A DNA stretch of 64,000 bases, from assembly GCA_007693435.1 (NCBI GenBank), contig REDO01000185.1:20175-84174 (forward strand), in the 5' to 3' direction. Source of the DNA: Salinarimonadaceae bacterium. Lineage in GTDB: Bacteria > Pseudomonadota > Alphaproteobacteria > Rhizobiales > Beijerinckiaceae. The translations under genes were made by a program, and so were the position numbers. Positions 61,593 through 64,000 of this stretch are shown piece after piece (within the stretch, counting starts at the first letter, position 1; each line of letters begins with the position of its first letter). The notes below the pieces were generated by a model that was not told where the DNA came from, searched no databases, and saw nothing but the letters and a program-made list of their open reading frames with translations.

Positions 61593-61820
61593 GTGATCAT
61601 GCAGTTTCTCCAGCGCGACCCCAGCGGCGCGTTGCCCGAGACCGAGGCCGAGAAGCTGGCGCGTGTCGCGTATGAGCGCGCGCTGATCGAAGAGGCTCGC
61701 GCCGATCTTGACGCCGGTCGCGTCGTCCGCGGCGACGAGGCTGAGGCGGCCTTGGAAGCTTTCGTCAGGGGCGAACCCCTGCAGATTCCGGACGCCAAGG
61801 CGTCGCCGCGCCCCCGCTGA
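61593..61820 (+). CDS. ParD-like antitoxin
   Basis: A 75-residue protein, with ETEAEKLARVAYERALIEEA and RADLDAGRVVRGDEAEAALE, the helical pattern of small antitoxins of the ParD/RHH-partner class. It is followed after two bases by a ParE-like toxin frame, the normal order. GTG at 61593 sits eight bases after GGAGG; ATG 61599 is the alternative. Upstream 150 bases are AT-rich and probably hold the autoregulated operator. Confidence 0.72.
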   Translation: MIMQFLQRDPSGALPETEAEKLARVAYERALIEEARADLDAGRVVRGDEAEAALEAFVRGEPLQIPDAKASPRPR

Positions 61821-61822
61821 CG

Positions 61823-62143
61823 ATGCCGAAACCCATATTTACCCACTCAGCGCTGCGCGATCTCGACGCGGTGCGGAGATGGCTGACGCAAATCGGCGCC
61901 GGAGACCGGGCCGCGAAGAAGCGTCGCGACATCGCTTCCGCGATTCGCGAGATCGGCGAAGCGCCGCACCGATGGCCGGACAGCCGCGATCACCCGGGCG
62001 TCAAGGAACGGCATGAATCACCGGGCACATGTCGTCATCTTCTCAGTGATTTTTTCAATCCGTTCTCGAATTCGTCGCAAATATTCTGCGAAAGATATCG
62101 TATAATCTGTCAATCGACCGCGCTTTCCTGCTTTTATCATTAA
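61823..62143 (+). pseudogene. ParE/RelE-type toxin with disrupted C-terminus
   Basis: The first 65 residues match ParE-family toxins: KPIFTHSALRDLDAVRRWLT, AIREIGEAPHRWPDSRDHPG and VKERHE. After that the family expects a GHxVIFxV strand. That strand is only found in other frames (ITGH, then HVVIFSV around 62,020-62,050), so at least two small indels have broken it, and the frame then runs into AT-rich DNA ending STALSCFYH. Probably inactive; toxin loss would leave a solitary antitoxin. Confidence 0.6.
62018..62140 (-). CDS. Short 40-residue frame coupled to the 533-residue gene
   Basis: The ATG at 62140 overlaps the TAA of the upstream large gene as TAATG, a typical operon junction. The product MIKAGKRGRLTDYTISFAEY then LRRIRERIEKITEKMTTCAR is basic and helical and ends at the boundary with the toxin remnant. 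It may be a true small partner or the N-terminal stub of a longer gene lost at the junction. The track frame from 62200 is in the same phase but overlaps the neighbour. Confidence 0.4.
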   Translation of the reverse strand: MIKAGKRGRLTDYTISFAEYLRRIRERIEKITEKMTTCAR

Positions 62144-63929
62144 AAATTCAAGTGTTTTCCACAATGCCCTATCACAATTAATTTTTCGCTCGGCAGCCAC
62201 TCAAAGTGAATCCGAAGTGTCTCGGCATAGCTATCTTTTACGCCAAGTTTTAAGTGTTTTTCCATAAGAATATCGACATCTTTATAGCGGAAGGTTCGTC
62301 TTTTTCTCCCTTCGGCGCTGATTGTCTCTGATTCTTTCGCTGCGAATACATTTCTGCCGAATCGGCCCTTGGCCTGTTGATCGCCTTTACCTGCGACGAT
62401 ATCCAACCAATATTCTTCCGCAAGTGATTTCAAAATCTGCAGGGCTTTTGCTCCGTGTTGGAATCCTCCACGATCACTCTCTTTTGCTGACGAGTAGGCT
62501 GTATCGAGTACCGCAACGCGATCAGAGTACAAAGCATCGATGATGAATAGAGCTTGCTCGAGGGACGGATTTCCCTTCAGTAGTTCACGAAATGCCTGAG
62601 CGAAGTGCGTCGATAGTCTGTCTCCCGATGCCTCATTAATAGGCTTCGATTGAGCAGAACTGAGGTTGTATTTGAGGGATTCGTTCTCAGCTGAAATGCG
62701 ATCCAGATTGGCATCCCTAGCCTCAATATCAGACCGTGCGTTTTCAAGTTCACGGTCCTTCGCCACCAACTGATCAGAGGCTTCTTGTAGGAGTTCCTCG
62801 TACACTGCTGTATCCACAGTACCGCTCGCGGCAGAGACTGCTTTTTGAAGCCTCTCGCGAAGAATCGCCTCGCGCACAATCTCGTTGGAAATGTGTCGCC
62901 AAGAGTGGGGTAGATTGGTGTGGTGCGTGACGATGGCTAATATCTCGGACTCGATCGCCACGCCTGCTTCGACAAGCTCGGCCAACCGATCAGGAGTGAA
63001 AAGAGTGGTCTTACAAAATCCTCCACTTTCAGTCATTCGATATGGAGAAATGATGTTGATTGCGCCACCGTAGGCGGAATATCTGCGGCCAAGAATGTGC
63101 TCTAGCCGATAAGTATCAACATGTTTTGGGATCTCGATAACTTGAGCTAAGCCGACTAAAACCGACCTAAGCCGTTCGGGTGCGACGGGAAAACTGCCTT
63201 CTCGATCACAGCTGATTTCAACAATTGGATGATGGCGGTCTATGCGCTCGATCTCGTATTCGAATGCCTTTGCGTTTTCCTCAGTCAATTGAATGATGGA
63301 AAGCCCCGGGGTATGCCTTGATGGCCCGCATCGACCGATAATGTTTTCGACAATACGAGGCCTTGTCACTTGTATCGGGTCTGTGACCTTTGCGCTTATT
63401 TCATCTGTTCGGAGCAGAACAGAACAGAAAATTTCCTGATCGGGCGCTGCTTGCTTCAGCCCGATCTCTGTCACCCATCTACGCCCCGGAACCCCAGGCT
63501 GACCATGGGCTAATCTGGCATTAAAGTGGTAAGGAAAAATTGGGTGTCCGTGATCATCAACGGTCGCCAATGAGCTTAGAGATGCACCGTCAGTAAAGCG
63601 TAAATCCTTAATCCCGACTTCTAGCCGCGCTGGATCCACGTAAAATTTTCGAGGAGCCCCAACCCATGATGCAATTTGAGCAATAACATCAGAAAATCCT
63701 GAAGACGGTTTCAGTAAAAAGCTGTTTGCGTATACGAGCATATAAATCTCTTAGTTTTTTCTCTCAACTTCCTATGCTCTGAAATCAAGCAATGCGAAAA
63801 ACCATACAAATAATCGAAAGGGTCTACCGAGTTGTTCGCATTCTGGGCGGCGGCACGAAATCATGGTAGCCCCGAATCGATCGATTATATGAGTCGTAAA
63901 TATACTGTACATGCCTTTTGTAATGGCAT
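62040..63929. other. AT-rich segment, probable horizontally acquired insert
   Basis: Base composition drops well below the surrounding high-GC DNA, with long A/T runs between and within genes and A/T third positions. It begins inside the ParE-like frame and ends just before the GC-rich 3' end of the next gene near 63,930. No integrase, transposase, tRNA or flanking direct repeat was recognised. The last 188 bases (63742-63929) hold no gene that I can see and should contain the promoter of the 533-residue gene. Confidence 0.6.
62140..63741 (-). CDS. Unrecognised 533-residue coiled-coil protein, possibly defence-related
   Basis: I cannot assign a family with confidence. Residues 1-280 form a globular part (LVYANSFLLKPSSGFSDVIA, FPYHFNARLAHGQPGVPGRR, DPIQVTRPRIVENIIGRCG, RRYSAYGGAINIISPYRMTE). 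About 290-370 is a coiled coil (YEELLQEASDQLVAKDRELE; DANLDRISAENESLKYNLSS). The C-terminal 150 residues end RIHFEWLPSEKLIVIGHCGK HL-type, a compact beta-rich end. No membrane segment or signal. It sits in AT-rich DNA beside toxin-antitoxin remnants and is coupled to a short second frame. Codon use differs strongly from the neighbours. Confidence 0.8.
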   Translation of the reverse strand: MLVYANSFLLKPSSGFSDVIAQIASWVGAPRKFYVDPARLEVGIKDLRFTDGASLSSLATVDDHGHPIFPYHFNARLAHGQPGVPGRRWVTEIGLKQAAPDQEIFCSVLLRTDEISAKVTDPIQVTRPRIVENIIGRCGPSRHTPGLSIIQLTEENAKAFEYEIERIDRHHPIVEISCDREGSFPVAPERLRSVLVGLAQVIEIPKHVDTYRLEHILGRRYSAYGGAINIISPYRMTESGGFCKTTLFTPDRLAELVEAGVAIESEILAIVTHHTNLPHSWRHISNEIVREAILRERLQKAVSAASGTVDTAVYEELLQEASDQLVAKDRELENARSDIEARDANLDRISAENESLKYNLSSAQSKPINEASGDRLSTHFAQAFRELLKGNPSLEQALFIIDALYSDRVAVLDTAYSSAKESDRGGFQHGAKALQILKSLAEEYWLDIVAGKGDQQAKGRFGRNVFAAKESETISAEGRKRRTFRYKDVDILMEKHLKLGVKDSYAETLRIHFEWLPSEKLIVIGHCGKHLNF

Positions 63930-64000
63930 CTAGATTCCCGCCAGCTCCACCGGCGCGAATTGCGTCGTTTCCGTCGTGAACGACACCTCCTCCACCGCCA
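63930..64000 (-). CDS. 3' end of an unidentified minus-strand gene
   Basis: Reading from the window edge on the minus strand gives AVEEVSFTTETTQFAPVELAGI and a TAG at 63930-63932. Composition returns to high GC, so this is probably the resident chromosome beyond the insert. Too short to identify. Confidence 0.5.
   Translation of the reverse strand, partial: AVEEVSFTTETTQFAPVELAGI

Follow-up and report, generated by a model that had tools for sequence, protein, structure and literature searches.

Several described systems come close to the gene reported here. HEC-07 (Hma-embedded candidate, PADLOC PDLC04158-04161) is a named but uncharacterised candidate family; some HECs have been validated (HEC-06 is named in PMC12988326; see also PMC12409356), and our literature search found no antiviral or phage-resistance data for HEC-07 or for the subfamily described below. 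Menshen is a three-gene system with an OLD-type nuclease among its own components (PMC10952713). PARIS and the "backup" effectors of BREX are small modules that occur within BREX loci as well as in the hotspots of P4 satellites, likewise the setting of the present family, and for them, too, an RNA-targeting growth arrest has been proposed (PMC9122126, PMC12839542). The main text of the BREX survey names HEPN, PIN and Schlafen RNases and no RelE-like one (PMC12839542). As for the RelE toxin fold, it is usually discussed in connection with antitoxins and persistence.

The window analysed here, a stretch of 64,000 nucleotides from a Salinarimonadaceae bacterium, carries near its right end a real, mobile, defence-associated single gene which, judged by its profile matches, is a divergent member of HEC-07 (Table 1). 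The original prediction was unable to place its product in any defence family that it knew; the PADLOC HEC-07 models match residues 74-531 with E=1e-30 and also match all 26 of the 26 aligned relatives. The score of 105 bits, set against 421-690 for core members, places the protein in a separate HEC-07 subfamily. It is like HEC-07 in length, order, single-gene organisation and defence association, whereas its first ~74 residues are unmatched, the window's subfamily possesses an MLVY start and an HLKIG/GHCGKHL motif, and the contexts seen here are type I BREX and satellite hotspots as against Hma. In addition, the last ~150 residues match Menshen NsnC models (3.6e-9). This C-terminal part is common to the two, whereas the N-terminal part of NsnC is unrelated by these models, NsnA/NsnB-type partners went unrecognised in the inspected loci of the 533-aa family, and both the window and the annotated relatives have a single gene in place of a three-gene nsnABC operon. 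PARIS differs as well, being a two-gene OLD-ATPase/TOPRIM system, whereas the present family consists of one gene. On balance, we lean towards reading the gene as a mobile, stand-alone anti-phage gene of a divergent HEC-07 subfamily, in which a sensor head would release a RelE-like RNase and thereby bring about abortive infection.

Table 1. Features at the right end of the window (positions within the window)
Feature	Position	Strand	Basis or remark
ParD-like antitoxin frame, 75 aa	61593..61820	+	identity by reading; no significant family match
Truncated ParE-like toxin gene	61823..62035	+	Pfam ParE_toxin residues 5-67; GC step
40-residue basic frame, TAATG-coupled	62018..62140	-	judged a chance ORF spanning the insert junction
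HEC-07-like protein gene, 533 aa	62140..63741	-	intact ORF; PADLOC HEC-07 1e-30; candidate single-gene defence system
C-terminal domain, residues 378-533	62143..62610	-	alignment of 50 sequences, model and Foldseek; predicted RelE/HigB/YoeB/ParE-like fold
Coiled coil, residues 312-364	62650..62808	-	AlphaFold2 secondary structure
N-terminal globular head, residues 1-~300	62842..63741	-	AlphaFold2 pLDDT mostly >90; putative sensor
Sigma-70-like site upstream of the 533-aa gene	63884..63911	-	10/12 consensus matches; consensus only, no more than chance
ispH 3' end, last 22 codons and stop	63930..64000	-	right edge of insert; contig terminates here

An intact frame of 533 codons coding for a head, a coiled coil and a compact C-terminal domain had been foreseen, and both the ORF call and a confident AlphaFold2 model (27 related sequences, mean pLDDT 85.8) bear this out. 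In the model, the head, which reaches to about residue 300, combines sheet and helix, a single long helix spans residues 312-364, and the compact C-terminal domain begins with helices and continues as an antiparallel sheet. Searches of Pfam, NCBIfam and PHROGs with the protein returned zero matches, and the PDB sequence search with full-length and C-terminal profiles returned coiled-coil or chance matches only. The Foldseek comparison suggested along with the original prediction was fruitful in one part: the C-terminal domain ranks RelE-type toxins first, if at weak E values, while the whole protein and the head gave no significant fold match in PDB and BFVD, the START/PR-10 and thioredoxin-like rows of the full-length search falling below significance.

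Modelled alone, the C-terminal domain reached a pLDDT of 91.5, and in the PDB search with Foldseek RelE, HigB, YoeB, ParE and PfiT made up most of the top 40 rows. The best of these rows had E 0.038, probability 0.87 and target TM 0.55, and none lay below E 0.001. Pfam gave no match for the RelE/HigB/ParE superfamily in this domain, and hhalign against the ParE and Gp49/HigB alignments was not significant (p 0.065-0.7), the non-significant HigB alignment nonetheless showing the expected register. Since no row falls below E 0.001 and the profiles do not confirm the match, membership of the superfamily is not established, and what the model supports is that the domain likely resembles the RelE-superfamily fold. 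A RelE-like register had in fact been proposed from the pattern HLKIG...RIHFEW...IVIGHCGKHL before the fold search. Across 50 sequences H496, G525, C527, G528, H530 and L531 are invariant and E470, R482, Y486, M493, K498, R510 and F513 nearly so, with Gly at the K498 position in the E. coli copy. In RelE, the residues that matter most for mRNA cleavage are R61, R81 and Y87, with K52 and K54 nearby (PMC2807027). Aligned by motif, K52-x-K54 would correspond to H496-x-K498 and R61 to R510, while R81/Y87 would lie near H530. Compared with RelE, HigB, YoeB and ParE, the domain probably has a similar fold, by its model, and by motif H496/K498, R510 and H530 fall on the expected strands, whereas significant sequence similarity is lacking, His residues (placed by motif) appear in relation to K52/R81/Y87, and the domain is fused to a large head with no antitoxin gene.

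The C-terminal domain behaves as a module that can be carried from one protein to another. In picocyanobacteria it follows HIRAN domains (L098, L101-L104, L106 and L107, the HIRAN domain being confirmed in L098), and in one further protein (L092) it follows DUF429 plus a confirmed HIRAN domain; these picocyanobacterial fusions may constitute a HIRAN-linked defence family of their own. At least two copies occur in Vulcanococcus limneticus. On a 371 kb viral contig, which may belong to a jumbo phage, the domain is fused to a tyrosine-integrase-like N-terminal region (L120:7314-8732). P. aeruginosa megaplasmids (L191:3910-6846 and more than 100 Pseudomonas plasmids) encode, two genes from umuC, a 978-aa protein that ends in a distant copy of the domain (26% identity).

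A RelE-like fold also serves without RNase activity, as ParE inhibits gyrase. It is conceivable, in our estimation unlikely though not far-fetched, that the domain is no RNase at all and binds nucleic acids or partners (BREX or restriction-modification (R-M) complexes, DNA ends, gyrase), the head being the effector. Such a role would accord with the fusion partners HIRAN, DUF429 and integrase-like domains, all of them DNA-related, with the occurrence of the domain in three-gene Menshen (NsnC), which brings its own OLD-type nuclease (PMC10952713), and with the conserved G525, C527, G528 and L531, which could be structural. Against it, the conserved basic/acidic set of E470, R482, H496, R510 and H530 resembles an active site, and no enzymatic fold or motif could be recognised in the head.

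In the reading that we prefer, that of a sensor-controlled RelE-like RNase, the activity of the enzyme, its trigger, its autoinhibition by oligomerisation and the abortive outcome are all things that we infer. The head (residues 1-300) would sense that infection is under way, probably because restriction or BREX has been damaged or inhibited, or else through a phage product. The coiled coil would keep the protein as an inactive oligomer until sensing frees the C-terminal RelE-superfamily domain (378-533), which would then cleave RNA, either mRNA at the ribosomal A site or tRNA/rRNA, so that growth stops before the phage matures.

The genomic company of the relatives gives this reading its biological setting. 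A single-sequence query of the viral and genome collections found no relatives; an alignment-based query did find them, at 28-57% identity, in Proteobacteria, Chlorobi, Chloroflexi, Planctomycetes-type, Nitrospinae, Bacteroidetes and Acidobacteria-type genomes, many of them MAGs. INPHARED phages yielded no match to the 533-aa family. Among relatives with long flanks, the closest two (L063, 57%; L068, 51%) both lie inside type I BREX operons, on the same strand between pglX, present as two halves, and pglZ, with gaps of 4-22 nt, and in L068 brxL comes after pglZ. Three others adjoin type I R-M genes (L076, L085, L087), one a type III methylase (L071) and one a DrmMI/IIG-like methylase (L067). 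Relatives are also borne by Pseudomonas megaplasmids, by IMG/VR phage contigs and by a Klebsiella SSU5-like phage-plasmid, and a near-identical Klebsiella phage lacks the gene at that place. As a raw share, about half of the full-length loci have defence or mobile surroundings, and many of the others are on short contigs. For the first 254 residues, the closest relative (68%) is on a viral contig (L119:8001-8762), where its reading ends beside a transposase-like frame.

With BREX I, R-M genes, a P4 satellite hotspot, a phage-plasmid, megaplasmids and phage contigs among its surroundings, the association of the family with defence is well supported, and the expectation that relatives would lie near defence or mobile genes was borne out; nor did homology to a housekeeping family come to light. 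A housekeeping role was rejected on these same two grounds. The gene within BREX fits, in our analysis, the "backup effector" idea of PMC12839542, and its place between pglX and pglZ points to a possible guard function, by which BREX-disabling phages would be punished. The plasmids, phage-plasmids and phage contigs could also be taken to mean that the gene is cargo of mobile elements with some other role, such as superinfection exclusion between elements, plasmid competition or plasmid maintenance. We regard this as improbable: such a role would hardly explain why the gene lies between pglX and pglZ or next to R-M genes, and exclusion would itself count as phage defence.

At the locus itself, the gene lies in an AT-rich stretch of ~1.9 kb (~62.03 to 63.93 kb) that is bounded by a truncated parE on the left and by the end of ispH on the right. 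The AT-rich surroundings expected from the original prediction are real: GC content is 48.3% in the gene and 47.1% in the insert, against ~66-70% in the flanking DNA, and the GC step puts the left edge of the insert near 62010-62045. The adjoining toxin-antitoxin genes are there in part, as a ParD-like frame and a ParE-like gene. The ParE-like match (Pfam ParE_toxin, 18.5 bits, below the cut-off) halts at residue 67, after which the frame enters AT-rich DNA, and from its sequence the gene is a truncated remnant. The pair at 61593-62035 appears to have been broken by insertion. The local context of a defence island, by comparison, was not found, as the left-hand flank consists, by reading, of xanthine/CO-dehydrogenase-type genes and the right-hand one of the ispH 3' end. 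This last piece is 75-80% identical at the DNA level to the ispH ends of genomes of the same genus and family, and with host-type ispH beyond the insert the locus amounts to one gene inserted among housekeeping genes. Neither direct nor inverted repeats were found flanking it, and no empty site could be shown in congeners, the left flank and ispH being apart from each other in congener G003. The 198 other genomes of the order, three congeners included, contained no full-length relative. Among the weak matches inspected in same-family genomes, three (L049, L051, L052) were spurious and carboxy-terminal protease-like.

The GC step, together with flanks that are joined in no congener and a contig that stops 0.26 kb past the gene in a draft genome of 206 contigs, might lead one to suspect an assembly chimera, with foreign AT-rich DNA misjoined at the contig end. 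Host-type DNA on the far side, up to 80% identical to that of the same family, makes this very improbable, and because the family is real and widespread a chimera would alter our picture of the locus and not of the protein.

The original prediction further proposed a two-component operon, in which the second gene was the short basic frame coupled to the 533-aa gene. Both the TAATG overlap and the frame exist; as a gene, the frame fared poorly. It has zero family matches in the searched libraries, its end overlaps the parE remnant, and no counterpart was found downstream of about 28 relatives. Among random sequences of matched composition, ~16% have a coupled start near the stop that opens 40 codons or more, and ~1% have the exact TAATG. 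With a second gene conserved in no relative, we judge the frame to be a product of chance that arose at the insert junction. That it should be the second component of a toxin-antitoxin or sensor-effector operon is hardly credible: the exact overlap and the basic product speak for it, whereas the missing counterparts in the relatives and in every library, the end within the parE remnant, the E. coli satellite copies that do without a partner gene, and the frequency with which chance gives so long a coupled frame (up to 16%) all speak against it. The search for a second gene at homologous loci accordingly ended with single genes, as in the E. coli satellites, where the psu-int slot holds this gene and no other. 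No cognate antitoxin gene was found as a conserved neighbour at the relatives' loci either, and on that ground we rejected the interpretation of the 533-aa gene as part of a toxin-antitoxin pair.

In a broader and more tentative view, which we entertain seriously but would not yet back, the family may represent an undescribed class of one-protein effectors, in which interchangeable sensors, acting through a coiled coil, restrain an antitoxin-free RelE-superfamily RNase. HEC-07, NsnC and the picocyanobacterial HIRAN proteins would thereby be unified, one subfamily acting as a backup to type I BREX and restriction systems and as a weapon of satellites. If true, the RelE fold would also serve as a directly sensor-controlled antiviral effector without an antitoxin, common to HEC-07, Menshen NsnC and the HIRAN fusions. 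The novelty lies in the two contexts, BREX and satellite, and in the C-terminal domain with its RelE-like character and its module swapping.

As one compact copy resides in a P4-like satellite of E. coli, our reading can be put to the test in a laboratory strain. The psu-int slot of P4-like satellites is a hotspot of validated anti-phage systems (PMC9122126). A chromosomal homologue was present in 10 of 5,426 complete E. coli genomes. Three of these were inspected, and in each of them a P4-like satellite at ssrA has no gene other than this one between psu and its integrase. The E. coli protein is 32% identical to the 533-aa protein of the window; WP_047657979.1 is an example of a satellite copy. 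Raoultella has the same order of psu, gene and int (Psu 2.4e-86), and in Dickeya the gene stands between primase and int, beside smpB. Most of the E. coli homologues share ~73.6-73.7% DNA identity with the Klebsiella copy; this suggests that one satellite lineage spread recently in E. coli (L187 and L188 being among the carriers). In E. coli N51 the satellite homologue is annotated as two overlapping frames (L189:7995-9577), probably a natural frameshift, and the copies in L187 and L188 are intact.
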